This document shows positions 1-61,321 of a DNA stretch of 64,000 bases, piece after piece. The position numbers and the translations under genes are program-made. Below the pieces are notes generated by a model. The model saw only the letters and a list, made by a program, of their open reading frames with translations, made no database searches and had not been told where the DNA came from. Numbering within the stretch: position 1 is the stretch's first letter; each line of letters opens with the position of its first letter. The stretch comes from Panorpa germanica (Eukaryota; Arthropoda; Insecta; Mecoptera; Panorpidae). The DNA lies in the NCBI GenBank assembly GCA_963678705.1, contig OY783212.1:8370001-8434000 (forward strand), given 5' to 3'.

Positions 1-978
1 CTTCTGACGCGCGTCAAAACACCGACAACAGTCCGAATTTCTTCCAACGCGAACGTTGAACACACTTAGTTCCAGCATCGACAACACGTCGCATCGTTTG
101 GTACCGGCATTAGCTAATTTATGAGCCACAGGAAGCCATAAAGGGAGTCTATATCAAAAATATAATTAACAATACATCAACAAGTATTGAAGGGAATCCC
201 TCTAAAGGAGAAAATATGAAAGCAAAATCAAAGATTAATTATAAAACATCAAAGAAGTTTTTTCAATACAAATTAAATTACAATTTCTTTGTAGAATTAC
301 AATAGACGTCATGAAAGGCGAAAGCAGTGTAGCAAAATATTTGTAAACATCATTTTTGTATTTTTTTCTTATGTACACAAAAGCGTTACACTACTACACC
401 GTCAGCACTGCGTTGTAAATATATAATACTCGTCTTTTATAAATAACCTCAAAAAATTACAAATTGCTGATGAGATGTCTAGTCATGGTTGCTAATTATA
501 AATACTTCGTGAACTAAATTGGAACTTTAAATGTTTATTCAACCAGGTATATGCATTTTGTAATTACAGAAACGAAATGCGTTTGTTGGCAACGTTTCAA
601 TCCTACTGCATAATATACTCGTAATACAAGCAGTTAGTTAAGATATCGCCGTACGTTCTCGCATATTTTTAACAACAACAAAAATTTACGATAACTACAA
701 ATATTTTAATTAAACAAAAAGCATATGTCTTATAATGGGTTGTGTAGTGTGCTAAAGAGGTTCAAGGGTAGACAACTAGTTTCTTTAATGGTTGCACTAT
801 TTCCTAATATACAGAACTTTTAAGGTAGTTCCAGTATGAAACTATTTTTCTATAGATTATTTAAATTATTGTTTATAGTCTACCATAAGAATAACGTTTA
901 CTAATAAATCTAGAAGTTTCAATATTTTTGACCGTTTAGAATCCGAGATAATTAGTAATAAAGTAAGCAATTTTCAGG
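1..978. other. AT-rich stretch, nothing recognised
   Basis: No open frame with coding character, no tandem repeat and no terminal-repeat pair was found here. One TACTCGTA octamer lies at 616-623. The first 60 bases are slightly richer in CG dinucleotides than the rest. Confidence 0.5.
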
Positions 979-1145
979 CTCACCTCTCCAGACCCGAATT
1001 TGAGGAAGGGCAGGTGGGGCTACTGCCGTGGGGCCTCCACAAGAGAGGGGCCCCCACAATAGAGGAAAAAAGACGGACAACTTGACGGAAAAAAGTTATT
1101 GCCCCAGGGTCTCAACAGGACCTCTCATTTGGAGCATGTAAAACT
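979..1145. repeat. GC-rich island, possible decayed hAT-like element
   Basis: This patch stands out from its AT-rich surroundings, with runs such as GGTGGGG, GTGGGGCC and GGGGCCCCC. The same style of G/C run occurs just inside the ends of the hAT-like element at 22291-22901. No clear terminal inverted repeat or target duplication is visible, so assignment to hAT is inference. Confidence 0.25.
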
Positions 1146-3838
1146 TCCTGTCTGCCCAATTATTTTCTGTTATACAAAAAAATTCTCTCGATAGAATTTT
1201 CAAAAAATATAAGAGAATAAAGAAAAATGTTTTTCACGAAATGTATTATATAATATAAATATATATATTTTTTTAAATTCCAACACGTTTTTTTATGGTC
1301 AATGATAATTCGGCAATGCTGCGCGCAAAATTATCTCGAGTAGTGTACAATAAAAAACGGAAACTTTATAGTAAATGTTTGACTGCTGGAACTGTCATAT
1401 AAGTGTACAACACCGCTGTCAGTCTATCCAAGTACTTACTACTCCCAATATTACTTAACTTTAGTGTTACAATGAAACTGCTGCCTTTTTAAATACGGTA
1501 TTAGTGTTGCCATTATTTTCCAGTCTCGCAATAAAAATATAAATAATCTGGTGATCGAATATAGTGATGGAACAGACAGCGACTCAACCAGCTAGTCTCC
1601 GCTAAAGGTACACATTTATTTAAATTACCCACTTCAATTATGTTAAGGTTCTCTCAATTAAAAGTCAGTCGTTCTGTACTTGTGGAAGTTTCAAAGCCAA
1701 ATCTACAAGTATCCCATGTCCCATTCTCCGAGATTGTTAAAAGCAATCCTTGCCATCCGAGTAACTTGAAGTGTAATCTCTTAAACACGTGCAACCATTT
1801 CCCGTTTACAGAAAGATTCGATATTATTACAGCGTTAGCATCCGAGCAAGAATAGGCCTTTGTAGCTCTGAATCATGTCATCGCTAGACTGGCTTGAAGT
1901 TACAGGATTGTACAAAGAATATTCATAGGGTAAATATCTTAATAGGTACAAGTATCCATTTTTTAATTAAACAACATTAAAACTTTAATTGTGTCCTATG
2001 TTTTTAAATATTTAGCCGCACCTTTACTGACAGTATACTTTTATTATCAATTCAAAAAACGTGTATTGCAAGGAATTTAAATACATGTATATATTTATTT
2101 GAAGCATGGCAATGGGCACGTCGATCTAACTGCAGGGTTTACAAATGCAAGAGGAGTACGGCTATACTCTACAGGTTTTGTTTGAATAAAAAACGCAACG
2201 TAGAATACAGGTATTCGTATAGTAAAAGGCATTGTTCTGTTGTTATCCGATAAAAATTACTGGAAATTGTAAATGAATAATAAATTAATTACATCATGCA
2301 CCGATATGTTCATTGTCTGCTAAGCCAGTCTTTCAAGATTAGTTTAATCAGAAAATATAATTCATCCAGGGACGTCCCAGAATGATCGGGATTGTCCTGC
2401 TTAAGAGTGAATTGTCCCGCATCTCGCATAAACATATAAATGTGCCGTAAGTAAACAATTAATAGATTTTAGATAAAATATTACAGTGAAATTTTAAATT
2501 TACCCCAAATAGAGAATTCTGAAGAGCAGAGGACCTATAATTTACGACACGATAAAATAAGGTAACTGAAAACAATAACGGTTACTAGTTACAAATGATT
2601 CGCGGAAAGTTTTTATAATTTTTTTTTACAGAGTAATTACAAAATTAACAAGGTAACAAGTGTTTTTGTTATTCCTTTCTGTTTAAATTGTCCACTACAA
2701 AAGTTACCTTGTAAGAACCGTTTTACATTTGTTATTAACGTTTCAATGGACGAGTGATGGTGAAATACATAACCGTACATTTTTTTACAACAGCGTTAAA
2801 TTCCAGATAATTGTTGTTATAATGTTATGTAAAAAGCACTTCATTGTTTTTGTTTATTGTGGTTAACAATTAACAAATTTCAACAATTTATTACTTGATA
2901 TGAAACATAACTTTTAATCGGATACTTTTAAAGTTCCCATTCATAAATATCATTTTAATATACTATAATTAGATTATAATTATGATCTTTGAAACCTACT
3001 TTATAGGTACGTATTTTAAATAAACTGTTATTTTTAAATGTCAGGAAATACTGGCAAAAAAACAGGTTTTGTTATATGTGCACTTATTAAAATATTTTGA
3101 GGCAACAATATTATTAATTATACAGCCTAAAAGAAGTAATTTATGAAGTTGTATTTAATAAAAAAAAAAAAAATTGCGATTTTTTTAACATTGTCATAAA
3201 TTGCGTCATTTTTGAAATTGTAGATGATTTAAAGAAAAGTATCAACTATCGTACGTTTAGATATGATTCTTTAAGACAGCATCCATAATTGTAATTATGG
3301 ACTGACTTTATCATTTCCAGGTTATAATAATAGTAAGATCCCTACTTTGTAACTTTTTAAGGACACCCGTTAAGGTTATACAATTTTCAAAATAATATTT
3401 CTAAAAAAATTAGGCAACTTAAGTTTACCTAAAGGTATGAGCCGTCTTTAAATAAAGTGCAAAATAAGTCCCACACCTTGGAGCCTTAAAAGGTCGCCTA
3501 ATTTAATTGACGCGGTTTGTACCATTGAGGTCTTAAAATTGTTAGCCCCCGAAAATGAAACAGTATAAAAAATGAGAAGTTTAATATAAAGCCTAATGTA
3601 AATGAACCAATATATACAATCACATTATGTAATATATGTAAACGAAACACATAAAATGCATCCAGTCACTTCCGCAGAAAGAAATGTAACAGAAACAACA
3701 GTCACAACACGTTAAAAAATTCAACATTACGGCTCAACCTGTCAGCGAGTTACTTACAAGCATATCACGAACAGAATATGTAGTGGTGTGCAACATATAG
3801 CCTGCGGACTACTTTTCACAGTGTTTGAAATGTACTTA
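1146..3838. other. AT-rich stretch, nothing recognised
   Basis: Short frames occur (for example 1640-1855) but lack splice context, codon bias or any recognisable motif. No repeat shared with the rest of the window was found. Confidence 0.45.
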
Positions 3839-10125: not shown

Positions 10126-12902
10126 AATGAATCATTGCAACGACATTGCACACTGTTATTTCGAAAATATAGTTTATTTACTTTGTAGATCTCTCAGCAT
10201 CTTTTTTATTAGTTACTTGAAAGGGATGATGTACAAAAATGAGCCCATCGATGGCCGAAAGATACCGAAATATTCGTACAACATAAGATATAAGTACAGC
10301 TCTGGTTTTATTATCGACTATAATTATTATCTAAAAAAAATCAGCATAACTTAATATATATCACATGAAAATAACTAAAAAAAACTGTGACTTCTAATGA
10401 ATACAAGCATATAAGTATAGCCTATCACTTACATAACACAAACGTTCAAATGTAAATAATATTTTCATTTTTACTGAGTATCATTTAGTTGCATATTTCA
10501 CAAAGTAAGTAAATATGTAAATAAAACAATTAAAAATAAATACTAAATAAAAGAATTTAAAGAAATTTAAGATAACTTGTACAATACATTGTAAATATTA
10601 ATTCAGGCCATATAATGAACACCTGCATGTAATATGGTAGAAATGGTACAACCTTGTAAAATATAGAAGTAATAATTCATGCTTTGTTGTTAGTATTTCC
10701 TTCCTATTGTTTTTTCATAAATATATAACAGTGTATATTTACGAGTAATTAGGCAATAAAACATAAAACTGACCTATTGTGATTTGTCTTATCGTTTGAG
10801 GTAGTAAACCATTATATTTCTTATGCATTTATACAGATAAATATAAACGTATATATTAACAAATCAACATATAATATATATAAAAACAAAATATTGTGCC
10901 AAAATATAAACGTGAAATAATGTTGGAGATACTTTCAAATGTGAAAACTACATTACAATATTACATTATATACTACAAACAATGATAGAGTTAATAATCA
11001 ATTCATGTATATTTAAACTATCAATATACTTGTAAATACTATAAATATTTATAAGAGTTAAAAATAAATGATGACTTCCTTGTAGGGTTCAATAGGTTAT
11101 GTTTATCAAACAGACGAAAATTATTCTCGTTTGATATATCGAGAATTGCCGACTAGCAATTAATAATATATTATTATGTCTATCTAACTAAACTAAAGGT
11201 CAACTTTTCAGATATCAAGTTTTTAATAAGCATGGATGAAAACATCTAACTACTTTACATGTCAATCCTATATGTATTATAACGTGCAGTAGAGAACCTG
11301 TTATGCAAAAAACTATAACAAATGACATTTTAAATAAATTATATATACCAACATTCTCTTCAAAATACAAAACCATCTAAAGCTACGTGAATATTCATTA
11401 ATAAAAGTAATTTAATATAAATATAAACTTACGAAGAATGCATTTTATTTTTTGGCATGTTGAAGGAAGATTTTCAAAATAAACTGGTTTTATAACAGCA
11501 CAAAAATATATGTCACAGTAATCAAATATTAATAAACGTAAATAATATTTTATTAATTCAAAATATTAGCACTGTCACTTAATAAAATAATAATTACACT
11601 TTTCTAAACTATATATTTGAATCGAAATGTTTATGAATAACTCCGTGTCCAACAGCGGTTTGTGTGAGACTTGTGAACTGCAACAAGTTACTATCAGACT
11701 ACTGTGAAGTTATAAACAAAACTGTGTCAATTTGAAAAGAATATAGTGCGTTCACGCGTAGAGAGATTATGTTAATAGTTTTTAAAATTAGAAATATGTG
11801 TTTTAATTTATGCTAAACAATATAACCTTGCTAGAACTTTAACAAAAATAATATAAAGAGTTAGATAATACGTTACTTTTTTAATTGCATGCATAATTAT
11901 ACTTTTACATATCGTGTCATGAACATTTAAATATAAAAGTATATCACGAAAATAATATTATTCCATAATAATTATTTCATTCAAAAATTCATTTTTACAA
12001 ATAAATAAATAACTTATAATATTAATAAAAATATAATTCAACTATCCTAATAATAAACATACTATATTATATTAAATATACCAATACAAAGAATAAATTA
12101 ACGATTTTCATAATTCAGTATTGTACTGCCATCTATTGTTGAATAGCTATAGTATAAAGGTATGCAACTCTACTAACCAGAACTATTCTAATATTCCAGA
12201 ACTATGAATTAACAACTTAATAATATGAAATAATATATTATGGAATGTGAATGTCATATTAGTTAAACTACATATAATTATTTAATCACAATTACTATGA
12301 TAGGTAACATAGAAGTAGCACAAAATGTAGTCCTTGATGGAACTATATTTCATAGTTAGATTATGATGTGAATTATGTATTACAATTTAGAACATTAATT
12401 GAAACTTAGCGTATTTATTTAATTGACTCAATAGTACGACATTGTACTATTAAGGTAATCGTACACAGATCAGCATTGCTCGCATCAAGCGCATTAGATT
12501 TATCGTAGTAAACATGAAAGAGAACGAAAGCGAGGAGAAGACGTATATATATATATATATATGCTCTTCAATAACTCTTTTGAAAATGTCGACATTCGCC
12601 TTCTCTCCTGCTTTCCTCTTCTACATTGGATACGATATATTCAACGTACCTTTAACGCTATCAAATTGCAGCCAGAGTATGAATGAAAAACAATATTTAT
12701 CCTACAATGTGTTTTAATTAGCAATATTCGCATTATTAAAATTTTATTATTATTATTGTTATTATATATTTCTTAATTATGAAAATTGTGGTGTGTTATA
12801 TTTATTATGTATATGGAAATACCTAGTGGGCGCAAATTAGTATAATATATATGAAGAATGTGTTAAATGTTTTATCCAAGTGGAATATGTATCGCAATAT
12901 AA
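10126..12902. other. AT-rich stretch, only a TA microsatellite recognised
   Basis: No gene or shared repeat was found. A (TA)n run occupies about 12544-12562. A TACGAGTA octamer lies at 10740-10747. Confidence 0.45.
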
Positions 12903-16385: not shown

Positions 16386-16386
16386 G

Positions 16387-16942: not shown

Positions 16943-17786
16943 ATTTAATGTAGTATAGTATATATCCGTGAAGGTTGCGTCAAAAAAATATAATTTTTCC
17001 ACTAAATTTTTCCACTTAATTCATAAGTAAATCTGTTTAACTTCTCTATGTAAACAAGATTTAATAACCTCATTTTCATTAACTATAATTTTAATTATCG
17101 TTACAATTGTTCTGAGATTCCATTACGCGTTTCTACGAGTAACAGCCACAGCCACTTGACATGTGCTTATTGCGAAATGATGTTAATAAGTCAAACTTCC
17201 TCTGAAACGCCGAATAAATTCCCCCAGTGATTTAGACTTGTTTATAAGGATATTGCGCGTTTACGGTACCTATTTTAATACATTGCAGCATTTATCAAAC
17301 CTTATATGGATATATTTAGCTGTCAGTAGGATGTAAGCAATTTGTTTGTAGCCACAGCCTGTTGTGCTACTACATAACTCAGTGGTTGCCAACATAATGT
17401 CAGAGGACAACTTTAAACAATTTACCCCTTCAGCTGCAGTTTGTTATTGACTACATTGTTAAGACGGACTGAAAATTATTAACATGAGGCTTCATTCTCT
17501 TTATTAAAAACAATAGCTTCATCAACAAAAAAAATTCACAAATTTGTATTTCCGAAATCACATACACTCCATTGCAGTAATATAGGCATGTTCAAATCTT
17601 TGTTCTGTTGCTATGACACCGATAATCCTTGGAAATCCGAACGCCCCAAATATAGTGTGCACAATCTTCTAATATATGATAATCTGGGTATGTGATAATC
17701 TGGGTTCTGTCCAACAAAACTGATCAAGATAATTAAAAAGTTATTCGGTAAAAAACGATTTTTCATATTACACACCACAGCAAAAA
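16943..17786. other. Stretch without recognised genes
   Basis: No coding exon or shared repeat was recognised. A TACGAGTA octamer lies at 17134-17141. Confidence 0.4.
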
Positions 17787-22251: not shown

Positions 22252-23171
22252 ATATCACTCAATAAGTTCATAAGATGACATACAGATAGCCACTGGCGTA
22301 GCTAGGTATGGGCGAGTCGGTGCAGTGCACCGGGGCCCCCAAGCTCAGGGGGCCCTCGGACTTTTATAACTTATATTTATATTTTAACGGTTTCACAGTG
22401 AAGTATAACTAAGAGTATTAGTAAATAGTTATTCCCGACAATGCTTACAAAACTTTTATAACAAAAACCTAAACAATAACAAAAATTCTAAATAGGAATG
22501 TTTTTTTTTTTATTGAGAGTGTATTTCATACTCACTTCTGTATAAATTTATCGCTGAACATGAGGGAGGGGGGAAGCATGGACCAGGCAAGGGTCTAAGT
22601 CTATTACGTAATTCTCTCAGGCAGAGGTACGCATTCTAGAGTTGCTTATGTTGAGATTAAGCTGAAACAAAAGTAGCTGCAGGATTGTACTTAGAGTCTT
22701 AGAGCGCAATACACATACATGTAGTAAGTAGTTTTGCTGTGTCATGCAGTGCACGATAAAGAGCTGATGATAAACTAATAGCTTTGTACCTTTAAAGTAT
22801 TTATATATATTTATATCTGACTTGAAAAACCTAAACAGTTTAGTTAGGGGCCCAGATTTTTTTTTTGTACCGGGGCCCTTGGTTACCTAGCTACGCCACT
22901 GCAGATAGCGCCACTATTGACAAATCCTTTCTATTTTGAGATAGTACCAACCTTCAAACAACATGTGTCAAAATTTTATGACATTCCAATAAATAGTTTG
23001 CGAGTTGCAGTTGTTTTAGTGACGCTACTGTTGTAATTTTAAAAACATTAGAAAAATCTAAATTTCGTGAGTTTTTGCATTTGAATGGTAAAAAATTTGC
23101 TTTTAAATAGGAAAAAATACCGTTCAAGGAAAGCAATGGCTTTAGAAGTGTTGTTCGGACTATGGACAAGT
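22252..23171 (+). mobile_element. Mariner 5' relic interrupted by a hAT-like MITE
   Basis: The left piece (22252-22290) starts with the family end ATCACTCAATAAGTTC. The right piece (22910-23171) continues the leader and the first part of the transposase. From 23047 the translation gives EKSKFRE and later, after a frame change, VQGKQWL and KCCSD, all matching mariner N-termini. The ATG is TTA and there are frame breaks. Joining the two pieces at the 8-bp duplication restores the order seen at 3839 and 48376, so the MITE arrived after the mariner. Confidence 0.85.
22291..22901. mobile_element. hAT-like MITE with perfect 8-bp TSD
   Basis: The ends CACTGGCGTAGCTAGGTA and (reverse complement of the right end) CAGTGGCGTAGCTAGGTA form a terminal inverted repeat. 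They are flanked by identical CAGATAGC at 22283-22290 and 22902-22909. An 8-bp duplication with CAGTGGCGTAGC-type ends is diagnostic of the hAT superfamily. Just inside each end are G/C runs (GGGGCCCCC and GGGGCCC). The 611-bp body is AT-rich with no transposase. Confidence 0.9.
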
Positions 23172-24047: not shown

Positions 24048-25621
24048 AATATACATATATGTACCTTGTTATAACTATCAATGTAAATATAAAATTATCG
24101 ATTTTTAAAGTTTATTCTCAACTAAATGCTCAAATTATTTATCTCATCAATGGAATCATGGAAAGAATCATATTTGTGTAATAAAAGCTTCTAAATATCT
24201 AGAAGTAAATTAACGCAATATTACAAAAACAGTATTCGTAATTACAATAATTATATCAGCAGAACTAAATTTGAGTGGATATCAAAAAACAATTCCAGTA
24301 AATAAAATGTTAAGTATTTGACCATTTTTCTTCAACATCTTTTAAAAATGTAATAAACTTTTTAATAAAAATTCTTGTCAGGTATGTTGTTAACTTTCTC
24401 ACATTTTCTCTGTAAATTATATTTATAAAAATATTTTTACGGCACATTTCACTTCCAGGGGAATTGAGCTAAGAGAAGAAATAGGGGTTGTGCACGGTTG
24501 TGAAAACCTTCACTGCTATCTCCGTTTCCTAAGGGAGCTTTATTACAGCCGTAACCTGTGAAACATGAGATGAAATCACGTTGTCAAAATATCTGAACAA
24601 CTGTATTTTAAAAACTGTTTTTGTTTTATTACAAAGTACAAAGCCATTTTTCGTTCGTTGCATACTAGCTCAAATAATTCGTTAGAATGTCATTTTTATT
24701 GATACAGAAATGTTATAAAAAGAAAACCTACGAAATAATCAAATCTTTATTAACAGTATTTAAATTTCGGGACAGATAAAGATAAAGACAGATAAAGTTG
24801 TCACCCTTATTGTGGCCCATTTGCTCTAATAATTTGAAGACTTCCAGTTCAAAGAGATGGCATTCTGATTTAAATTAAATAAAATCTTTTTGTGTTGTTA
24901 TAAAATAACGTTTCACTTCAAAGCTTTTATTTAATAATACGAGTACGTTCCAGTCTGAAAGCATAAGCACCCTTCTCAATCAGTATTGTCAGCTGCACGA
25001 CTGCCAGTGGATTCTAAAGGGGGTTCCGGACAAGAGAACTCCCCAGTGCTAGTCACGGTTGTACCTGCTGACCGAAGAGACGCACCTGCTAACGCAAATT
25101 AGTTTTGGAACATGTGCAATATAGGGATCGAGTATGACATAATAATAATTATAACATCTTACTTTAATACTAAATTGATAACTGAACATATTGCCTTGTA
25201 ATTAAATCAACACATGAGTTATTGGAGGCCTAGAAATGTACTCATTGTTTTTGTTCACTGTTTGCAAAATGCTGGAGACGTGTGTCACGATTTACATTCC
25301 TTGAGTTGCATTCCTTCTTGAAATAATGTCGATTCGTCTCATATACTAATGCTATAATCGACGATTTAACAATATTATATTATAAAAATTAAAGAGCTCA
25401 AAATTTCTCCAAAATATTTCAAATATAGTACTAAAATAAAAAACGCTATTGTTTATTTTTTAAACGTGTGATATTTCTCCTACGTGCCGTTAGAGCATCA
25501 TTACTACTAAGTAATCAAATATTACTATAAAGAGTAATAATGTTAGATATAATAAGTAATTTATGTTAGAATTTCAGAAACAGCTCCAAATGTATTAATT
25601 ACATCAGGAGGGAGGGTCTTC
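24048..25621. other. Stretch without recognised genes
   Basis: No coding exon was found. GC-richer patches at about 24450-24560 and 24960-25110 may be old transposon debris but show no end pairs. Confidence 0.4.
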
Positions 25622-26055: not shown

Positions 26056-26838
26056 TTTCACAACAAATAATTGACAGTGTAATATAAACCTGCGGTAATT
26101 GATTCAACTGCGAAGATAATAATTACAAGTGTAACGATTCTGTCTTGGTAACCCTTTTACAATAGCAACACCCTTAGCACCAGCTCGTTGCCATGGAAAT
26201 ACCGTTCCGGGTTTCGTTATTCCGCTAAACAAGTTTTAAGTACTAGAACTTGTAAAGGAACAACATTTCAAGTAATGGGTGAAAGCTTTTCTTATTCTTA
26301 TTTACTAATTAAATAATCTTGAGATATCAAGTAGGGTTATTATTTCAAGTGTTTCCATTCAATTAAATAGAAAACAAACTTATGAGATTAATGTACTGCA
26401 TATATTTGTGCGCGTAATACTAACAAGATATAGGAAAGGAATACATCTAAAAGTGAAACTCTCATAAGGCTCTCTAGTTAGGCTTTAAAGAACTTCAAAG
26501 AAAGGGTATATGAATATTATATGAGTCTGTATTTTCGGTAAACTGATTTGAAGACTTCATTATGACAATTATGGCAAATGCGAAATTTATACTGAGAACT
26601 ATGATTCATTAGTTTTAAGAACGCTTTGATCCTTTTACAGATAGGATCTCTCTTTGATCAGTTAGGTTTATTAGCGCTGAAATTGGATGATGCTGAAGCG
26701 TTATGCCTATAATCAACCAAGTGAAATATTTATAACTGCTTTATATTCGTAGTTATAATAACTTGTCCGTGAGTAAGAGAAGAGTAGGCGGTGGGGTACG
26801 CTGTATAATCTAGTGCATCTCTGCAGATTTTAATGGTT

Positions 26839-27350
26839 CGAGGGTAGTTTGATATTTCAGTGATTTTTTGAATTTCCCGCGCAGCTCCCGTCAACTGCTA
26901 TCTAATAGACTACTTTTGAGCAAGGAGCATCATTTAATTTGTGTTTAACAGACATTGAAAGCAGCTATCCGTGCGATGGATGCCACGATTGCGATGAAGT
27001 GTGTGAAGTGAAGACTACGAACTGCTACCCATACAGCATATTCTCTAGATTTATCCTCCTGCGGCTATTTACTGTTTCCAAACCTAAAGAAATGACTGGG
27101 TGGTAAGAGATTTGAGTCTAACAAAAAGATCATCACTGAAACCAATGAAACAAACGCCTACTTTAAGCGATTTGAGAAAACCTATTATTTGGAAGAAATA
27201 AAATAGTTGAAGAAAACGCTAGACTAAATTTACCGAGCTTAAAGGAGACTATGTTGATAAATAAAGCGCTTTTTTGTAGAAAAAATATCTTTTATAGAGA
27301 AATAAAGAGCTTTTTTAAAAAAAATCACTGAATTATCAAACTACCCTCGT
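26839..27350 (+). mobile_element. Internally deleted mariner with both TIRs
   Basis: The left end CGAGGGTAGTTTGATATTTC and the right end (as reverse complement CGAGGGTAGTTTGATAATTC) match over about 32 bases with one difference. A TA follows the right end; the left flank is TT, so the TA duplication is imperfect. The element is 512 bp against about 1.3 kb for a full mariner. It keeps the last third of the transposase gene, so it is a deletion derivative. It differs in its ends from the family at 3839. Confidence 0.9.
27000..27264 (+). pseudogene. Mariner transposase C-terminal remnant
   Basis: The translation gives AYSLDLSSCGYLLFPNLKK, then after a TGA LGGKRFESNK, EAYF-type spacing (NAYFKRFEKTYY), LKGDYVDK and a stop at 27262-27264. 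This is the conserved end of mariner transposases (YSPDLAPxDYxLFPNLK...GDYVEK). The last catalytic Asp of the D-D-D triad, in APxDY, is Gly here, and in-frame stops plus a frameshift are present. The gene is dead. Confidence 0.88.
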
Positions 27351-28181
27351 ATTACTAAGTTTGAACCAAACGTCATTATATTTCACTATTATGGTGGCGT
27401 TTCTATGCCTGAAAAAACTTCCCAGAGTATTAAAGACATAATGAGTCAATTTTCAAATATTTTTTTTAAATCACGTAATTTTGTAATTTCTATAAGTTAA
27501 AATACAAGTTTACTAACTCATACAATCTTTTGCCAATAACTTACTCCCTTATTGAAATAAACATAGTGAAATAAATCAGGCTGATAAACAAAATGAATAA
27601 TGCAACATCTGCTAACTTCATTATGCAAAAATGATTTAATTTTAATACTTAAGCACATCTTTTCTTAAAATATATATTTACCACGAAACTCTCAGACGAT
27701 ATTTTCTTGTTCGGAATAGAATTCTCCTTAAAAACTTTTCTTATAAATAAGGTTAAAAACAAAACTCAAGTTGCTTAAAGTAATGTGTTAGATTCAGATG
27801 AAAAGTGTAGGAAAAATGTAGAAGCTTTTTTATAAAAAATTAATAAAGTTCAAAAGTTATTTAAACATCAAAATATCTTAAAAAGTTATTTTATTTTATT
27901 ATATTGAATAGAAAAGGCAAATACGAGTACATACTCGTACATACAATGATGAAACTTCTTTTAAGAAAATAATGTTTCTTTTACATTTTAGAGTACCTTT
28001 ATACAGAAAATCAATTACTTATTACTTCTGTCAATTTGAATTACTTTGCAAACAATTATTACACTATGATTGCTTTATATTTATCATTGTTGTTATTTGT
28101 TGCAGTTAATAGCGCAAAATAAACATGGATATATTTATTAAGGTTTATATAGCATTACTAACAATTCCCAGGTAGAAAACG
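27351..28181. other. AT-rich stretch with a TACGAGTA palindrome
   Basis: No gene was found. At 27922-27939 lies TACGAGTACATACTCGTA, an 8-base inverted pair separated by CA, made from the octamer that recurs through the window. Confidence 0.5.
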
Positions 28182-33812: not shown

Positions 33813-34693
33813 CAGTGGCGGATTTAGGTCGGTGGGGCTCCAGACGCAAAACAAATTGCTCTCCCCCACCACAAAAATGGCAAAGAAAGTAGAAATACAT
33901 GTTTATCAAACTTTACCTTAGCTCCCACGCCACAAAATACACGCCTAGCCACAATTGCCTTTGGCGAAATCTATTGAATCTAGTTACAATTGTCATTAGG
34001 CAAAATCAATGGGCTTGTGTCCTCATTTTTTAGGGGTCGATTTTTCAATTTTTGATTGAAATTGATGTTAATAAATGTGTAATGGCGTGTTTATTTTATT
34101 AAATATCTAAATGACAGATATATAGCAATTAAAAATTTGAATTGTAGTTTTAGCGCTAGAAAGGGTCGGCCATATTTGTATGACGTAAACTGCATTTTAA
34201 CGTCAGTTATTTGTTGAGTAGGTCAGTGCTGTGGTAATGTTCTGTAGCTTTTGGTAGTCGAAATAATCAAGTCAAGTCAAAGAATAATAAGTTTTTATTT
34301 TATTTAACCCTAAGTCAGACATAATATTGGAATTCTATTGTTCCTTGAAATAGCTGCAAATAATATTTGATATTTTGATATATAAATACATATAGCAGAG
34401 ATTTATGAGCTGTAAGGTTGGTAACCTTACACAAGGATTGTGATGTCACATGCATTTGGAATGTGTACAACGTTGAATCCTTTTAATAATTAAAGAGACA
34501 AAATTACTTTTTTAATTGTTAATATCTCTTAACATATAAGGAGTAATTAAAAAATAATTGAACATTTGAGGTTCTAGTAATCAACTCTATCAATATATAG
34601 TACAGTTTTATAGAAATTAGGACATAGAACACAAGCCCATTGTATCTAGCTACAATTGTTTTCCGATATGGAGCCCCTCAAAAGCCGCTGCTG
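33813..34693. mobile_element. hAT-like MITE with internal repeats, split by a second MITE
   Basis: The left end CAGTGGCGGATTTAGG...GGGGCTCC pairs with the right end, which reads in reverse complement CAGCAGCGGCTTTTGA...GGGGCTCC. The flanks CTGAGACC (33805-33812) and CTAAGACC (34694-34701) are an 8-bp duplication with one mismatch, as expected for an aged hAT insertion. Inside are 35-bp tandem units beginning TAGCCACAATTG (33946), TAGTTACAATTG (33981) and TAGCTACAATTG (after the insert). Without the 632-bp insert at 34009-34640 the element is about 250 bp. Confidence 0.8.
34009..34640 (+). mobile_element. ATGGGCTTGTGTCC MITE, copy 2, near complete
   Basis: It starts ATGGGCTTGTGTCCTC and ends ACACAAGCCCAT. 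It lies inside the second 35-bp unit of the hAT-like element. Comparison with the uninterrupted first unit suggests the empty site read AAAATCAATTGTATC, which implies a 2-bp AT duplication and element ends of GGGCTTGTGT/ACACAAGCCC. The body matches 61322-61958 for its whole length, including TATAGCAGAGATTTATGAGC and GGTTGGTAACCTTACAC. It is non-coding and the superfamily is not determined. Confidence 0.85.
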
Positions 34694-41792: not shown

Positions 41793-43624
41793 TACTGAAT
41801 TTGGGGCTCTCTAAACCTGCGGGGAAAGAAACAGACTCTCTTCCTTGCTCCCTCACCAAAACGCTGATTTATAATGACTTCCAAAAAATAACTGCGTCTA
41901 ATTGACAGCGTTTGAAATGATTACCTAAGACAGCAACCCAATAGTGTATGCTACCTAATTTCATCCAAGATATACACTGTGATACTATTTAAACTGATCA
42001 CTATGAGAAATAAAGTGTCCCCATACTAGACATACACTAAAGCATAATACTCGTAATTGTTTTTATTTATGTATTATTCTTTGCCAAGTAGAATCAAAAA
42101 AAGTTATTTATTTTTAAAAGAAGTTACATTAGACATATGGTATCTAAAAATAGAGTTTGTGGAAGTTGGAATAATACGCGTAATAGCAATACCGTATGTA
42201 TACATAAAACGCAACGATGAAATGCAACGACGAACGAAAAACAAAAACAAAAATCGAGAACATTATTTTATGTTTATTCCGCTCAAAATGTAAACTACAT
42301 AAATAATAAAATACATACTGGCGTACAGCAATATGATGCCAGTAATATGACCAAAGTAATGCATTGGTAACTAGAGCCAAGTGATGCAGTAACAAATTAC
42401 AGTAGAGGTAATTAATTAATTAGGAATTAGAAAGTATGGTTTTCTTATTAGAAACTTAAATTTAATATAGATGTAAAACTAGATTGATCAAAATCATGAG
42501 CCACGACGAATTTAAAACTAAGAATATGTTTTGGCATAAATATACCGCGATTAAATCCGATAGCTTGAAAGTAAGATAATTATATAATATAACGTAACAA
42601 TATTATATACACTGTTCAGAACTGTAACCTCTCTGTTGTGTTGCAATATGTAAACATAATGTTACATAAATGCTACATAATTATTACTTTCGTATTATAC
42701 TACAACTTTATCTTATACTACAATTTTCTGAAATTTGAAACAGCAAGCTACACAATTACATGAACTTAAAATAAAATTATTTAATTGGCATGTCATTTAA
42801 ATTTGTGTCTAAATTATTTATTAAGTCAATTAAAATGAGTATAATGACATTAAAACGATGAACGAGTTTGTTGTGTACAAAAAAATGAAAACAAAGCTTT
42901 TTAAATTTTCTCACAATTATTTAAAAAATGTTTAGTCACTTCTTTATATGTAATAATATTAATAAACGGTTTAATGAATCATCCACGATTCTTGAAAATG
43001 ATGAATTTCAGATTTTTGATAAATCGTATCCCAAGGATAACTATTAGAATATGGTAAAAATGTGTTTATTTGTTTTTTTTATTGACTAGTCTCATTTACG
43101 ACGATCTTTTAATATTGTTATCTCCTTTTATGATGTAGAATCCTCATAAATATATAATTATATTTGAAATAGGAACTATAGCTTTAGCAATAAGTAGAGA
43201 ATAGACTGTAATCGAAATAAACTTGTAGAAAACTCAAATCCTAAAAGACTAATCCGTAGACTGAAGCGGAAATACTCTAAAGACCTACTCACCAGATTCC
43301 AAGTCGGAGTTAAACAGCCGTAGATGTCACAAAAAAATCCTTTATGATGAATAGCCTCCTACATTATATTCTACATTAGCCTAATAAATTTACTTATTGT
43401 TAATTTTGACGGATTGCAAATAAAATAGGATTCAATAAACGAAAAGACATTTGAAATATAATTAATTAAGCAAAACACCCCATCCTAAATCATATATTGT
43501 ACCGGAAAGCACGGTAGTATAGTGTCAGTGTTTCCATTTTCAGCAGCTACGTTATTAGATACGTTCTATTAGAACACCCTTAAAACTATTTTTAATGTAT
43601 CCATTAATTATATCACACACAAAG
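41793..43624. other. AT-rich stretch, nothing recognised
   Basis: Overlapping short frames on both strands at 42057-42395 show no coding signs. A TACTCGTA octamer is at 42048-42055. Confidence 0.4.
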
Positions 43625-43830: not shown

Positions 43831-44632
43831 CTATAAGATTCACTAGTGCAAAGGTAATTTAATAAATACTCTGCAACGTATAATTTTGCTTTCGTTTCGA
43901 AATTGAACACCCTATTCTGCACGTATCAGACGGAAACATATTACAAGATTTCAGAAACTGTCACATATGATTTTACACACACACAAATACATACAATACG
44001 AGAATATTATAGACATATAACTTTTGATGTAATATAAAAATTCTAGCAACATTTTGCATTGACAACTTCCGATTATATTGAATTTTCTAGACCTGTGAAA
44101 ATATGAAGTGAAACATATGAAATAGAAAGAATGAAAATAGGTTTGGTGGACCTTTGAAACCATTCATATATATGAAACAGAAAAGCACTGATGGAGAAAA
44201 ATGGTTAATTACTAAAACCGAATAAGTGAACATTTTATAATGTTCAAGCAACAAATTCAGCAAAGTTGTTATAATTTAAAAAATGAAATAATTTTTTATT
44301 TCCTTCGCTGAACTTGTAAACTGATACAAATACAAATACAATCGCATATATATGTATGCATGCATTCATATACATACTCGTATATAATATTTATAATATA
44401 TATATGAAATACATTATTTATTGTTTACAACAATAATTTTATGACAGTATAATCAAACAATATATTATTAAAATACTGAAATAATACTCTGTAGAATTAT
44501 GGTAACATATTAATAGTAAATAGGAACTTATTAACAATGTAAATTCATTTAAAAATATCGTTGCTGGTGGATATGACACATCTGCATTTGCATATTATAA
44601 AGTATTAATTGGACAAACGTATATTGAACACG

Positions 44633-45745: not shown

Positions 45746-47672
45746 TCTGAAGCGCTGAATAAACCAGCACCGGGCTACGACCAGAGTACACCAAATACTA
45801 TATCAGTATGATATAGCCATAGCGCATGTACATACTCTACGTACAATAGTAATAGTCTGGGGGATATTTCATTACATATTACAATTTTAATATTAAATAG
45901 GAAAATTTTTAATAACGCCTGCAACTAATAAGTTGCAACTCTAATAACATGTTTTATTAAAATTTATTTTAATTTTCAAAGTGTAATGTGATAATAAACG
46001 ATGTACAAATATAATTCAGTTTATTAGTAAACTAAATTTTAAAAATGTTTCCAAAATAAAAGTCAATAAATCTAAACTACAGGACACAATAACAAAGTAT
46101 CTTAATTTGGCAGTCTCGTAAGTAAGTAATGCTAGGGGCTTAAGAACGTGTTACAACTATTGTAACAATCAAAGAAGATTTCAATTTTACCTAAAATCAT
46201 GATAATTTAAGATTATATAACTTATCGTAAACTAAAAACGGAAATAGTTGTTTCTATTAATCACATAAATATCATTTTATGATTCTAATAGTAATCAGAA
46301 TAGGTTAAAGAACTTTATATATTGGATAACATAAACCTTAAATACACGTAACTCTGATTTACAGGCAATGTGAAATAATTTATTGTGAAATCTTACATGT
46401 TTTCCATACTGAGTAGATTTTAACATTTCAGACCCGTAAACTGTAAAAGTAGTCGGTCAATTGACAAGAAATTTAGACACAATGTTGCATTCGAATACGC
46501 CAGTTTTTTCTTTCGTTTCTTTCAAGTTGATCATCGTCTGTCTATGTATGTGTATCTCTTATTTACTTTCCCATTCATTTCATATCAGACTGAGCCACAG
46601 CGAAGATTTAGTTTGCCGGATTTAGCTTGTTATATATATATAAATTACTTCTCTTTCAAGTTAACTTCCTTTTTTTATAAAAAATAATACTGCGTTATCT
46701 ACAAAGAGTCGATCATACGAGTCCAATACTGTATTTGACCTACGTTTATAAAAATTAACGATTTTATAACGACTAGTATCACAAACAGTCCGTCGGAAAT
46801 AATAATAACAGAACGATTTAAAGCAAAATATAATCTCACATAGTTTTCTTAAATTACATAGTACAGAATTTCAAATGCCCTTGTACTATATGGGATTCTA
46901 GATTTACTTGACGCTGTACAATCCTATGTCCGCATGGTGCGCAAGTCAGCCAACACAGAAAAATAGAATCATGGTTTTTGTGAATACTAATATTTTTAGG
47001 GGCGTATTTACTACAAAATTACAAAGAATGAAATGTATCGGATAGTTAAAAAAGCTGACACATTTAAGGGGAAAGTAATTTATCAAAATACATTCAACAG
47101 TACAACTTCGTTTACTTGAAAGCACATTCGATTTAATAAATTATTCAATACCAGACATTGCGTACTCGTAGATATTAATTATTAATGTATTCTGTATAAT
47201 TGAAATAGTTTATAAGTCAATAAACTTTAGTTAGGAAGGATTTATTTTTACCGAATTTTCTATTTAAAAAAACCTCTTCAATTTCTATTTTATTTCAAAA
47301 TAAATATTTATAATGAATTTCAATTGTATTACCCTAAAATATATTTGTTAACCAGGTCAATTTTTTTAATTCTCATGTGATGCTGTGTGATGCGCTTACC
47401 AACGAACAGCATTTAATTTTATTTATATAGATTTTATGTTTTAAATTTAAATTTTATGTTTAGTCGTAGAACAAAGTAAGCGTTTCTTGCATATTGCCAC
47501 GTGCTATACTTTTCTTGAAACTAGTAAATAAAATTAAAACTAAAACAGTAGATTGAATAAATAATAAATCAAACAGTGAGGTGCATGAAATTATAGATGT
47601 AAAAAATTTCATTAAAAATTTATTCGATATAAAAAATGTTTCGATCGATATCAAAGAAAATTATTCAGTAGT
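45746..47672. other. Stretch without recognised genes
   Basis: No coding exon or repeat pair was recognised. A TACTCGTA octamer lies at 47163-47170. Confidence 0.4.
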
Positions 47673-51591: not shown

Positions 51592-53075
51592 AGTCCGAAT
51601 TACACTTCTTAAATCATTGCTTTACTTGAACGGTATTATAAACCATAATTGAGACTATAAGTTGTTGAGATGATGAACTCAACAAACTTAATACCCCTTG
51701 TTAATACTAATCAGCATGAGCGTCCGCAGAAAATTTGACAGTGGTCGCTAATTCTTCATATTCTAATCTATTCAGTCTAATTTTGCCACAGATTCCATTT
51801 CGATTCCAGGTAGGTTTATATAATCTCATATAAAACAAACACCATGTATATTCATATAAATTGTATCAAGGTGTTTTATATGAGGTGATACTAAATCGAC
51901 CCGCTCTTATTGAAAAACCCTATAGTATAAAATTTGATATTCAGAGTGTCGCATTTGTTTCCACATGAGCACGCCCATGTTCTTCGATGAATCGGGATCT
52001 GTAACAACAGATGTTTGTTTTCACACATATGGAAGTGGAAGTACTCCCTTCTTTTGGTTCTACCCTTACATTATGCACCCACTCAATGATAAATGGCAGG
52101 TTATTAATTTATATGGCGCTGTCATCAGTTGCCTGTCGCTTCCGTTCTATCAGGGACTCGTTTCATGGGATCTGTAACCGGGACCCGGGAATGTCAGTTT
52201 GATGATTTAGTTACTCTTTATCCTAGGTAAATAACATCGTAATTTATCGTGTTATTTTTATTTCAATGGCAACATATAATTCCTTAATACGTTCATCTGC
52301 TGATTGTCTTAGCATAAATGCATATTATACACAAAATGTAAATTTTTCGTGAAGAAATATATGGTATGACTATGTCTGTTGCGTTTTCCTTTCAGGATAG
52401 AGTTTTATAAGGGGAATGTTACATTTTTTAGGTATGTTCTCTGTTTTTTTTCTTTAGCTCTCAATACTATAAAAAATATATATATACCGAATCCCCAATA
52501 ACAAATGCAAAACTTATTGACTTTATCAATAAAACTAATTCTTTTTATTTTAAGTACCCATACTCGTATCTAAAGTTGTAAATGTTTATAAATGTATATA
52601 TTCTTTTAAGTGCTAATAACTTTTTAACGTTGATGCTCCCCCCGCTTGATTCAACATTTAAAATCCATATCCGACTACACTCTTCTTACGTACAATCCTG
52701 TTTTTAATACAAAAAAGTTATGATAAATTTACAATAAATGCACATTTAGTATGATTTACGTAACAGTTCTATAACAGAAACTTTTAGAAATAAAAATTAC
52801 ATTATTAACTCAAAATTTAATTGTTACAAATTCCACATAACCTCAAAATATATTTTTTTAATTATTATAAATAATAGTTTTACCTAAATAAAACGTTGAC
52901 AAGAATTTTAGCATTCATTTATGTAAAATATATATAACTTGTTTTAGCGAGTAAACCTTTTGTGAATGAATGTAATGACTTTCTTGTTATTACTTGCTAA
53001 AAACATTCATCTCTAACCAAATTTGCAAATGTGCTTGTTCGTAAATGCCACAGCAGGTTAAATTCTATGCGTGCA
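51592..53075. other. Stretch without recognised genes
   Basis: Two overlapping plus-strand frames at 51965-52202 are less AT-rich but show no motif and no convincing exon borders. AAGTGCTAATAACT at 52611 recurs from 29583. Confidence 0.35.
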
Positions 53076-54892: not shown

Positions 54893-56613
54893 TAATATCT
54901 CCATAAAATATTCGATATAACATCAATGAGAATGTAGCTTAATATAGATATTAAAGAATTTGTATTGAAAATAAATTAAGATATATTACAGACATAATAA
55001 TCAAATATCCTTTCAAAATAAGGTGCTTTTTGCTATGTTATAATACGGTATATATTCGCTTACAAATAAGTGAGCACAAATTCTACATCGACCGTACTAT
55101 ATTATAGCATAAAAAGTACTAAAACTCTAAACTACATCAAATCCTTATCAGAAATAAAAATAAATGTAATGAAATAACGTTGTCGATTTGAAATAAATGA
55201 CACTGAAAATATCAAAAAATAAACTGCTTTCTGCAAAGATTGATATTTTGTTATAATTGAAAATATATTGAATTAGTAATAGTAATATGTGATGTGAGAT
55301 TGTGGAAAAATATTTGGCGTTGAGTTATTCAATATTACTGTTGAACATTAATTCTGACAGGTGCATCAACAAAAATTAAAAATAATTATCTAACCTGAAT
55401 GTACATCTTCTTATTGCTAAGCCTTCTGTTTTTCCTAATACTACACTTTCTACAGAATGGAGAAAATAACAATAAAAATACTTTCAGAGAAACGCTACTA
55501 AGTGTTCTTAATTATTTGTCACATAGAAACAAACACAATCACACTTTCTTGACACTATAGTCATTTATCGAGTCCAGCATTATTGAGGTTATGTCTAACA
55601 TTTTTTCAACTTATGTTTTGTGTTAATAAAAACAATTTTAGAGACAAAGTAAGAGATTCTTATTAAGCTTTAGCCACTTATTTACAATCACAGATACTTT
55701 GGTGTATTTGAAAAGCACTTTTACTATTTAAATTACATTTCTTTTAATGTAGTGTTTTTCACTGTTGACATTTCAATATTCGCACTCAATATAAATACCG
55801 CAATGGTTTATGGGAGATACTGCAGTACTAATTTCTGTCAATCAAAAAAATGTGTTTACGTATACGCACAAAAAAGCAAAATTTGAACATATATTTTAAG
55901 AGTTGTCAGGAGGGTAAAGCCAGAGTCGCATAACGCTATAAGAGGAGAGATTATTATTAACCTTATAACCGCATTTCGCCTCCAACGGAGACTACGCTGA
56001 GGCCTTTGGTGACAGCCCTGATTGGCCTAGTCCAGTTAAATTAAAAATATTGAAATGTAAATATTCGATTTAAAAATATGACCATTTTCATTTTGCGATG
56101 AGTTTATACGAGTATGAGACAAATGATTTATTTCCTGTATTGTTTAAATGACTCTTCGCAGCTCTTCCAAATGGCGAATATATTCTAAATCAAACAAGAC
56201 GTTGACAATTCGACAAACATACTCAAACAAACTCAGTCATAATAACGACAGTGTAGGAGTACGAGTATTACGTTCCACTAATTTACATAATTAAGAGTAA
56301 TTTAATTATAAACGTGTTGCTCATTTGAATGTACAATGTGAAGTTGAAAGCAAATATGATGGCAACATCGAGAGTGTGGTGAGGAGAAGGGTGAGGCTCA
56401 GGGAAGAACTTCATTTAATTCCTCGTTTCAAGTTTTCATCTCCTTTATATTTCATAGCGGTGGGAAACTTTTTCATTTACCTTCTTCAGTTTTATACGGT
56501 GTATTACTTTTAAATAATTTTGTTTCTAATTGAATTTATTATGTCAAACTTTTGCAATTACTTAAAACCTCGGGCAATTTTGTTTTTGTCTTAAAAACAA
56601 CACCATTCTGGTA
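54893..56613. other. Stretch without recognised genes
   Basis: A GC-richer patch at 55908-56030, containing CAGCCCTGATTGGCC, may be a transposon remnant. TACGAGTA octamers are at 56107 and 56260. No exon was recognised. Confidence 0.35.
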
Positions 56614-56805: not shown

Positions 56806-58015
56806 TTATGAAGTCCACACTGCGTGACAAAACGCGACAAAAGAGTAACCTAATTTAAGAATGAACAAGAATTGAATACGATGAGGCTAATCAATTTAAT
56901 GATTAATTTTAGTTTTTACCTTTCCTCTATTATATAAATTTGCATGTCATCTTTAACAACCATTTTCTTTATTGGCAAAGCTATTGTTATAAACTATAAA
57001 AACATCTCCATCTAATTTCAGTAATTGAAAACACTTTTTTTAATAAAAACCTTTTTATTTTATATTATGACATTTTATAAAATAAATAAAATGTAAAAAG
57101 AGAAAAAATAGCATAATAATATGAATGAATTTCCGCTCATGTTGCTCTAAACCAATGAAAAATGAAAAGGAAAATAGAATAAAAGAAAAATAAATAAAAG
57201 AAGGAATTTTTCTGGTGCTAGGTTTGCCATAAAACTGAATGTAGCAGACTTCTAACAAAGGGGAGTACTGGAGTTTACCCGTAGAATGCGATGTAGAACT
57301 GGAACTGCTAGTGGAACATAACCCCATGAAGGTTAGTTGACAAGAATGGGATAGATGCCAAGCCGAAGGGTGACCATCGCCTGGAAAACATCGATGGTTG
57401 CCATCAAATAAAGGAAAACACATACAGTTGTTTGTCCGAGAATTTATTTACCGTATATATACAATATATATGAATGTATATTTTTATATATTATATAAAT
57501 ACTATGTAAGGGTAAAAGAACACATACGACATAAAAGATTTCCATTAGTTAGTTTACATGAAGAAAATAAGTGTATGTGTTGTTGCATTTATAAAACAAT
57601 CAGGCGCATTTTTTTTTTTTAGGATTCATATTTAAAAGAAAGTGAAAATTGCAGTTTAGCAAATATGAGTTATCGACATAATATCGAAATTTAAACGCCT
57701 AAGATATTTTTTGCCCATCCCTACCAAACAGTTGGGATAAAACGTCCAGTATCCAGGATATTTGAAATACCAGGCAACCAGGGGAGCCAAGGAGTCAGGG
57801 ATGCCCGGAAATCCAGAAATTCAGTAGAGGGAGGTATAATGTAGAATGTAGAACCCTGCAGGGTAATGTATTATATGAAATAATATAATATATACCACGA
57901 GTGGAATATGAACACAGAGTGCGCGGGCACGGGTGAGATGAATAGTCGAATAGCAACATGGAACAACTAAACTAAAATTGTGTTACATAAATATGATACG
58001 AGTACTAGTGCTGTC
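56806..58015. other. Stretch without a confirmed gene
   Basis: A 122-codon minus-strand frame (57055-57423) is serine-rich then hydrophobic and has no exon borders or motif. On the plus strand the same region could give a short exon before AAG|GTTAGT, but support is too weak. CCAG-containing words are dense at 57745-57830. Confidence 0.3.
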
Positions 58016-58076
58016 TGTAGGAGGAGGGGGAAGGGCAGTGGGTCGGTCGGAGGTAGACAGACAGAGAGCAGAGAGG
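58016..58076. repeat. Purine-rich, G-rich tract
   Basis: An almost pure A/G stretch with GGAGGAGGGGGAAGGG and CAGACAGAGAGCAGAG in AT-rich surroundings. It is a simple-sequence tract. Confidence 0.6.
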
Positions 58077-58243
58077 TCATTGAAGGAGCGTTGTAAGGAT
58101 CACGTGTCATCTGGTTATGTACAATGAGTTTCTACTTTGTACTCCATTTTCTCTCAAGGGATCTACCATTGATAAGGAAAATGTTTACGCTGCTTGTTTT
58201 TATTGACTTAATAAAAAAAATAGATTAAGGAACTATATATATA

Positions 58244-58735: not shown

Positions 58736-59357
58736 GAACATTATAATATGTGATATGATAATATGATATATGTACCTAGAAAATCTTTTTAAATAAGGGC
58801 AACATTTTACTTTTGATTAACATTTAAATATTTATTTTGATCTCGTTTATACAAATTGATAACAATATTTAAGGAGTATAAAATTATACATGCTCCGGAT
58901 TAAGCATTCACCAGGCCCTAGACAACTCGTGCTGAACAGTAGACTCGTACACTCAGATTCTCTTCTTTTTTATTCAAGACAAAATTCACTTGTGTCCAGT
59001 CTCAATGTACTCGTACTTTTTCCTTCAGGACCCAGCTAGTCGAGACCCCTTTTTCGACTCTTTAGTAAATAGAACACCTCGATTATCAACTTTACACTGC
59101 AAAGAATGTAATCTTTCACAAATATACACTGGATAAAAATAAATATATTACAAATTTACACTGAATAAGATGAAATATGAAGTTTTGCTTTCCGCTGTCA
59201 AATCTTAGCTCTTTTCCGTACACAATACCTACGCATCTCTTATTTTAAAACGGTTTAAATGTAGCCTAATTGTCTTTTTAATGATACTAATGGTGAATAA
59301 GATCTTCTAATGATTTTGCTATTGCAAAAAATTGTTATTTTATGATCATAATAAACA

Positions 59358-59571
59358 CCCAGTAAACAATTTGGTGAAGTGTCACTTCAATTATAGTTCG
59401 CATCAACTTTATCTTCATTTGTATTCCGACAGGAGGAATGGTTTCGCCATTTGTAGCCGATAAAATAGACATTTCATATGAATAACTGTGAGAAACTGAA
59501 CTGAAAATGAACTCTTTCATGACAAAAAAATCATACGCATCTTCAATATGATGTCCAAAATGTTTACTGGG
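59358..59571 (+). mobile_element. CCCAGTAAAC MITE, copy 3
   Basis: It starts CCCAGTAAACAATTTGGTGA and ends CCAAAATGTTTACTGGG. The body matches 4429-4626 closely (ATTATAGTTCGCAT, TTGTAGCCGATAAA, GCATCTTCAATATGATGTC). Confidence 0.8.
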
Positions 59572-61321
59572 ATGAAATACATATAACTATGTTTACCAGG
59601 AATGGTATTTATATAAAACAAGTTAAAACCCTCTAGAGACAATTTCCTCAAGATAACTTTTTAAAAAGAAAAATAAAAAAATAAACACCGTAATCCTTGG
59701 AACATTTCCTTTACGTATTAAAAGATTACACAAAGTACGGAATGAAAACAAAAGAAGTAACAAAGGGAGATTCTATTTATTTTTCTCTAACAATAAGTGG
59801 TCTATCGATTTCATTCTATCTGTGCTCCAGAGAGAGGAGACCCAGTAAACGGTTGGAATTACAGTTTCATAGTAAGTTGATTGTGTTGTTTAGTGCGTGG
59901 TTATTACGTATTTATTATTATTGGTCCATTTATCTTAGGATTTATTAAACCGCCGCTCTCTGTTTGTTTCTATTATTCACTGATTCGCTAACCGGTTGAA
60001 GTGGAATCGCTTGTAGACGTGGGATAGGAATCATTCTAGATTTATTGGCTAATTTAACAAAGTAATGGTTAGGCAATACATCTTTCGATCTTGAACACTT
60101 TTAGGACATTTCCAAGAAAAACACTTTTCTTACGATCATCTTCAAAATTTACGTTTTAAAACATCTTGCAGTACAAATTTCATATGTTAAAATTTGCATT
60201 TTTACATACGAATCCTTCACCGCTACACGCTATATTGAAACGAATGTTTTGAGATATAGCAATGGTAAATTTCTTACGATTATTTTGAAAAACTTACTAT
60301 CTTAATTAAGAATATGACAAATATTATCATTAAAAAGTTACGGCAAACGGTATTCGTTTTTTTATAAAATAAGTTTAGATTAAGCTAACTTTTCATAGTT
60401 TTCAACAGGAAATTTAAAATATTTATTGCATTGAAATGTTTTTGCTATTAAAATATGTAAATGATACTAGAGAAAATAAAATATAATACGAAAATCCTAA
60501 CCTTTTTTAAGAAAAACCAAAATAATCAAATCCAGATTTGGTTTTTCGACCAGAAATATGTTTTCCTTTATAATAAAATATATTTGCAGATCAACTGAAA
60601 ACGATTTCATATCTAAAAGAGTTAACAAATGGTACATGAACATTTCTATTTAAGCTGTTCTCCACAAGTAGAAGACAACCTCAACAAATAGAAGAAGTTG
60701 AAGTATATTGTAATATGCATATTGATTTACGGCTTCCGGAAAGTTATTGTTTTAAACAAATAGGGGTATAAACTTTCTGTTCATATTTCAGCAAAGCAAA
60801 TACCACGATATCGTTATCATTTTTAGTCTATTTGTTTTTGCATAAATATATTAAACAGAGATCAGTTGCAGACATTTTGTTTACTCAGACAGAAATACAA
60901 TTTCCAATAATAGTGGAGAAAAACTGCAGTGAAGTAGCAAAACATAAATGCAAGATGAGCAAGATGCATTTATCAAAGTTTCTTCGGGTACGAGTATACC
61001 TATAGCTAAAAGAGGAACTATTATATGCACAACATTATCGATTTTAAGATTTTTGCCTCTTTTTCTCAATTAACAAAGTTAAGTAGGTGAAGGTTAGTTA
61101 ACTCTATTAAAATAATGTGAAGCCAATATTATAGAGAAGTAGATATTGAACATATGAATTTGATTTATATTTATATTTATCTGCGGAGTTACGCTAGAAA
61201 AATGTAGCCTCACTCTGATACATAATGATATAAATAGGCATAAAGCAGTGGCCTGTTGAAATTAATTGCATCTAGTAGTCACAATTCTACGTGGAATTCC
61301 TTTTTTTAGTTCCTACACACA
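59572..61321. other. AT-rich stretch, nothing recognised
   Basis: No coding exon was found. A TACGAGTA octamer is at 60989-60996. ATCTAGTAGTCACAATTC at 61270 resembles the 35-bp unit of the hAT-like element at 33813. Confidence 0.4.

Follow-up and report, generated by a model that had tools for sequence, protein, structure and literature searches.

A genome-wide over-represented octamer in Panorpa germanica is very probably an excision footprint of mariner-type transposons

Why should a single eight-base word recur 18 times in 64 kb of A+T-rich insect DNA? We addressed this question in a 64,000-bp stretch of the Panorpa germanica genome (C9:8,370,001-8,434,000 of a 464-Mb assembly; hereafter, the window), for which a preliminary description had drawn attention to the octamer TACGAGTA/TACTCGTA, counted here on both strands. 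The octamer is very probably the excision footprint of mariner-type transposons (Tc1/mariner superfamily) with 5'-CGAGG ends. It consists of TA, then CGAG, which is the first four bases of such an element, and then TA. A CGAGG element would insert at a TA, which is thereby doubled, and on excision the tip bases would remain while the break is sealed, converting TA into TA-CGAG-TA, or into TA-CTCG-TA when read from the other strand. Several CGAGG families would pool into this one word, and no function is needed to account for it.

All 18 copies were recovered as exact matches at the positions given previously, and their over-representation was confirmed. With octamer copies masked in training, Markov models of order 1 to 6 predicted 1.3 to 1.7 copies (Poisson p 4e-13 to 4e-15), and 100 dinucleotide shuffles of the window gave a mean of 1.67 and a maximum of 5. 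Unmasked training raised the expectation to 9.2 at order 5 and 15.1 at order 6 since the copies then contribute heavily to the counts of the hexamers and heptamers within them (18 of the 35 occurrences of ACGAGT), and the masked expectations are therefore the fair ones. Once the copies of each word were excluded from its own expectation, TACGAGTA ranked first in significance among the octamers of the window; the top octamer by z of 60 simulated order-3 windows reached 11.1, near the 12.0 of the real window, but with 6 copies rather than 18. None of the 18 copies lies inside repeats detected by self-comparison of the window, in agreement with the preliminary description. Two of its premises did not hold: G+C content is 30% rather than the 32% implied by about 68% A+T, and the appeal to depletion of CG-containing words fails, since CpG observed/expected is 0.99 in the window.

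The proposal that the octamer is a genome-wide motif was borne out. The assembly contains 51,544 copies on the two strands (25,408 + 26,136), far above the 10,868 expected from an order-3 Markov model (ratio, 4.7), while the reversed word, taken as a control, occurs 10,147 times. The model was trained on a 264-kb sample that joined the window to 20 further 10-kb stretches, each taken at 3.0 Mb on one of C1 to C20, with octamer copies left unmasked, which is conservative. This leaves an excess of roughly 40,000 copies (about 40,700). The sample itself holds 33 copies (18 in the window and 15 in the 20 stretches) against 6.2 expected, a 5.3-fold enrichment, and the word ranks fourth among the octamers there, outranked by poly-C and by the TA repeat in its two phases. 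Octamer density in the window exceeds the genome mean (18 versus 7.1 per 64 kb; 2.5-fold, P about 4e-4), a difference to be read in light of the window having been picked because the word was noticed.

We compared 123 octamer sites with the window and with sampled genome DNA, and 27 had any paralogous match. The label "empty" was lenient, and of 20 rows only those for loci L037, L040, and L070 were used. At L040, all nine paralogous matches (72 to 79% identical) lack the octamer, eight of them with a gap of exactly 6 bases at a TA, and in eight of the nine a single TA stands where the octamer has TA-CGAG-TA. L040 lies in an inverted-repeat family present in the window at 8694, 34007, and 61320. 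The alignment of L037 with window positions 22709-22886 has a gap of 8 bases within a TA run, and its second match is a simple repeat. Four weaker matches of L070 (62 to 72%) also lack the octamer, with a gap of four bases to one of them. The third of three octamers in L027 falls in a 16-base stretch that is absent from L021. L028 and L029 are recent duplicates with the octamer in both, and the remaining paralogous matches are weak or lie within simple repeats. The inverted-repeat family of L040, whose copies provide its empty sites, consists of elements of about 650 bp and occupies 8687-9077, 34007-34658, and 61313-61980 of the window, the copy at 61314-61966 having the tips TACACACAATGGGCTTGTGTCCT.

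The bases that flank the octamer carry the imprint of a target preference. Clustering reduced 120 sites with 60-base flanks to 106 (93 outside the window and 13 within it); several clusters were chance A+T matches, such that true sites were lost, and most outside sites lie within the first 1.9 Mb of C1. Among the 93 non-window octamers, a purine precedes the word in 68 and a pyrimidine follows it in 73 (141/186), with T at -2 or A at +2 in 96/186 and A at -3 or T at +3 in 90/186 (p = 7e-12, 1e-4, and 0.002, respectively, relative to TAs in general). The full pattern, ATR-TA-CGAG-TA-YAT, corresponds to a palindromic TA target plus four bases and one TA. Insertions of elements with CGAGG tips that are still resident in the genome show the same flanks: of 40 such tips on C1, 36 have R at -1, 24 have T at -2, and 24 have A at -3, and after removal of look-alike flanks these counts are 29, 21, and 21 of 33. 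These 40 were read from about 100 listed places, with the repetitive stretch at 10.13-10.39 Mb skipped. Octamers and resident insertions thus have a common target preference, ATR-TA-YAT.

Resident inverted-repeat elements were found through words that start with TACGAG other than the octamer. Element ends of the form TACGAGGNNNGTTYNNWAA give 1,894 exact-pattern matches genome-wide, against 14 for the reversed-pattern control; among the matches listed, all on C1, there are several families and many facing pairs, at distances from a few hundred to about 1,500 bases. One such element of the donor type resides in the window (Table 1); it is flanked by TA on the right and TT on the left, its right terminus recurs exactly elsewhere, and no Pfam match was found inside it. 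A 588-bp element at positions 963-1550 of L020 lies between two TAs, has tips CGAGGCGTGTTTTTTAAGTRAG that are alike at 21/22 positions, and encodes a Mos1-type helix-turn-helix domain (PF17906, E 4.6e-9), with only part of a transposase frame. Of 615 candidates for the mariner transposase domain PF01359, the 150 that were scored all exceeded the cut-off, some in open frames of 347 to 373 residues, compared with 0 of 14 control genomes. Donor tips starting with CTCG (TACTCG...CGAGTA) were also considered and rejected, as no convincing inverted repeat was found; donors begin with CGAG.

Other sequences that CGAGG tips might leave behind show little or no enrichment in the 264-kb sample. The five-base scar TACGAGGTA occurs once (1.2 expected), the scar with two bases from each tip, TACGCGTA, three times (1.8 expected), and the mixed product TACTAGTA twice (6.3 expected), neither of the latter two being significantly enriched; the two-base scar TACGTA is slightly elevated (80 versus 61.5; 1.3-fold, p 0.014). 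The octamer behaves like a Tc1/mariner footprint in a four-base variant, the three-base form showing no excess (below). A possible route to four bases is that the 3' overhangs of the two tips, CGA or CGAG, meet such that the outer C:G pairs form around a tandem G.A mismatch. Repair of the G.A mismatches toward one strand would yield CGAG or CTCG and would make the scar uniform; since the mixed products TACTAGTA and TACGCGTA are not significantly enriched, both mismatches would be repaired together.

Several observations weigh against an origin of the octamer by mariner excision. Sleeping Beauty and mariner elements nick three bases inside the tip and leave a footprint that corresponds to the 3' overhangs of staggered cuts (PMC7827188, as far as its consulted sections go), and the overhang of Mos1 is described as three bases in the part consulted of PMC4505599, while the three-base word TACGATA is not enriched here (35 versus 38.6). 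In the portions consulted of PMC3770610, footprints of the human element Hsmar2 are non-canonical and variable in assays, obtained with a reconstructed transposase that the authors consider not to be fully functional; this speaks against a universal rule. A convincing empty-site paralogue was found for none of the 18 window copies. Two of the three L027 octamers align without gaps to other words, TAATAGTA and TATGAGTA among them, and therefore arose otherwise; the short, A+T-rich matches found for L047 and L084 show no gap either. None of the elements read was a full-length CGAGG element with PF01359. The mariner at L091, which has an open frame of 372 residues, has other tips (CACATGGG), and the scars predicted from them are not enriched in the 264-kb sample. 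Finally, scars are numerous relative to donors. The genome-wide excess surpasses the 1,894 exact-pattern ends some 20-fold, and in the 264-kb sample an excess of about 27 stands against 5 such ends (about 5-fold), with a looser search for ends there returning nine rows. Since the exact pattern misses decayed tips, the true ratio is below 20, but either ratio calls for a large number of donors that were lost or have decayed. Two features of this system are unusual: how strongly scars outnumber donors, and their four-base length. The age of the scars may be gauged from single-mismatch words, of which the sample holds 212 against 175 expected, an excess of 37 compared with 27 for the exact word; under simple decay, this corresponds to a divergence of roughly 5 to 20%, with wide error.

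We considered whether the octamer might instead be kept by selection because an abundant protein, either a regulator or a chromatin organizer, binds this DNA sequence specifically. The genome-wide excess combined with the palindromic extension ATRTAC-GA-GTAYAT, the close clustering of three octamers in L027, and the surplus of single-mismatch words, with TACAAGTA the highest at 29 versus 18.9, could all be read in this way. Against it stand the 6-base insertion at a TA in repeat copies, the identity of the inner four bases to the tips of resident transposons, and flanks that match the target preference of those transposons. No companion word in the window reached a family-wise p below 0.1 (best, 0.13), and changes at the center are hardly tolerated: TACAAGTA is also the highest of the other TACNNGTA words in the 264-kb sample, and no other TACNNGTA center exceeds 1.7-fold. 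The binding or structural role raised in the preliminary description found no support, and we regard selection for such a site as very unlikely. A shade less probable still is that the six bases were produced in some other way that has the same endpoints, such as near-total internal deletion or aborted insertion rather than cut-and-paste excision. What the data show is the insertion of CGAG plus TA and not the act of excision, and internally deleted elements do exist, such as the 588-bp element with its partial transposase frame; yet internal deletions would give a range of lengths, whereas scars of three, five, or two plus two tip bases show no significant enrichment, and the two-base scar is only 1.3-fold up. 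Base composition or chance, which would supply about 1.5 of the 18 window copies and about 21% of those genome-wide, has practically no prospect of explaining the excess, being refuted by Poisson p values of at most 4e-13 at six masked Markov orders and by the genome-wide ratio of 4.7.

Altogether, we favor excision of CGAGG transposons, and not another process, as the likely source of the six added bases. The preliminary description held that the octamers are not copies of one transposon, which is literally true; empty sites, tips, and flanks nevertheless suggest that they are by-products of transposons. Its alternative of a mutational product fits, the mutation being most likely transposon excision given the 6-base gaps at L040, the resident tips, and the common flanks. 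The palindrome of two octamers that it noted at 27922-27939 is present and may represent one scar at each of the TAs in TACATA. Octamer pairs that are palindromic with a 2-base spacer occur at 7 places genome-wide, compared with 1.4 expected if independent. As a separate observation, TAGCGCTA is also enriched in the 264-kb sample, with 11 palindromic places versus 1.7. Coordinates of the window features are collected in Table 1. Both R and Y flanks are present at 11 of the 18 copies, one of them at 5, and neither at 2.

Table 1. Octamer copies, empty-site paralogues, and a resident element in the window (R, purine at -1; Y, pyrimidine at +1)
Feature	Positions	Strand	Remarks
Octamer	616..623	-	Putative excision scar; Y at +1 only
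Octamer	10740..10747	+	Neither flank fits target preference; may be background
Octamer	17134..17141	+	Neither flank fits target preference; may be background
Octamer	24938..24945	+	Putative excision scar; R..Y flanks
Octamer	27922..27929	+	Putative excision scar; palindrome first half; R..Y flanks
Octamer	27932..27939	-	Putative excision scar; palindrome second half; R..Y flanks
Octamer	28696..28703	-	Putative excision scar; R..Y flanks
Octamer	29548..29555	-	Putative excision scar; R at -1 only
Octamer	33060..33067	-	Putative excision scar; R at -1 only
Octamer	42048..42055	-	Putative excision scar; Y at +1 only
Octamer	44375..44382	-	Putative excision scar; R..Y flanks
Octamer	47163..47170	-	Putative excision scar; Y at +1 only
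Octamer	52561..52568	-	Putative excision scar; R..Y flanks; one weak octamer-less paralogous match in L010
Octamer	56107..56114	+	Putative excision scar; R..Y flanks
Octamer	56260..56267	+	Putative excision scar; R..Y flanks
Octamer	57997..58004	+	Putative excision scar; R..Y flanks
Octamer	59008..59015	-	Putative excision scar; R..Y flanks
Octamer	60989..60996	+	Putative excision scar; R..Y flanks
Octamer-less paralogue of L037 (empty site)	22709..22886		90% identity; its one paralogue
Octamer-less paralogue of L040 (empty site)	34007..34150	-	Others at 8694-8839 and 61320-61466
Resident inverted-repeat element, donor type, 515 bp	26837..27351		Tips CGAGGGTAGTTTGATAWTTCAG, 21/22 alike

The orientation of the 18 octamers tracks local GC skew (p about 0.003 to 0.005 for half-widths between 2 and 6 kb, and 0.08 to 0.15 for those between 0.5 and 1 kb), and from 27922 to 56114 of the window it goes with large-scale skew, a post hoc observation that may be due to chance. 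An asymmetry in G+C in the flanks of the 18 copies (p 0.008 to 0.07 in sign-flip tests, depending on flank length) was set aside, being much smaller elsewhere (about 0.02 at the 93 other sites, t 1.8 to 2.0), and an apparent long run of + octamers on C1 proved to be a listing artefact, as - copies occur there. The window yielded no tRNA and no Rfam match, and its repeats, when sought in viral contigs, returned nothing. Ten open reading frames gave no Pfam match except for one DUF7789 hit below its cut-off; six-frame read-through Pfam scans of 1-14999 and 27001-56999, in which short exons can be missed, found nothing, nor did scans of 56998-64000 in four of the six frames. An open frame at 14946-15260 resembles, by eye, the tail of an insect non-LTR retrotransposon and has no Pfam match. 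Elsewhere in the assembly, tips TACGAGGCATG and TACGAGGCGTG are densely clustered on both strands at C1:10131686-10390336, positions 1189-3145 of L017 hold inverted repeats with tandem steps of about 146 bp, and the mariner of L091 (C16:13788300-13790500) has tips CACATGGGCTGAAAAGT, like those given for Rpmar5 of Rhodnius. Of the 150 mariner transposase matches scored, 30 fall on C21 (at least 39.87 Mb), where about 13 would be expected for 39.87 Mb; although C21 exceeds C1 to C20 in length, its number comes after theirs, which could suit a sex chromosome.

We are evenly divided on a broader proposal, that CGAGG scars, which far outnumber detectable donor ends, amount to a fossil record in which tens of thousands of departures can be counted; that their four-base length is set not by the cut alone but by the way overhangs pair across a tandem G.A mismatch; and that scar words could reveal past activity, including that of lost families, in any genome. 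If this is true, an unexplained over-represented word becomes a measure of transposon departures, which are invisible to copy counts, and a four-base repair rule for CGAG tips becomes testable. Motif searches in such genomes can also mistake transposon scars for regulatory motifs. In the literature searched, we found no count of such scars and no paper that gives either octamer as a whole word beside "motif." As part of a sequence, one or the other octamer occurs in 515 papers.

Highly iterated words have a precedent in HIP1 of cyanobacteria, a perfectly palindromic octamer that, like the one described here, occurs far above genome expectation; HIP1 has no known transposon tip, whereas the word here matches one. 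Tc1 is among the transposons that leave excision footprints of the Tc1/mariner kind. Those of Sleeping Beauty and Mos1 resemble the octamer in consisting of TA, a few tip bases, and TA (PMC7827188, consulted sections), but here the tip bases number four, not three, and the record consists of about 40,000 excess genomic copies and not of an excision assay. Over-represented octamers of flies and mosquitoes are listed in the supplements of PMC6881769, itself consulted in part. According to the consulted parts of PMC4678618 and PMC5490172, many published mariner tips of Rhodnius and aphids begin with CGAGG; Rpmar0, Rpmar1, and Rpmar22 of Rhodnius prolixus and Apismar1.1 of aphids combine CGAGG tips with TA duplication, a mariner transposase, and deleted short forms, as here. 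The main text of the Rhodnius paper lacks the words footprint and excision, and that of the aphid paper lacks the word footprint; in the present case, by contrast, the scars were found before the elements. The tips of human Hsmar2, TACGAGGGG, likewise place CGAGG next to TA (PMC3770610, consulted portions), and relative to its variable footprints, the scar in P. germanica is uniform.

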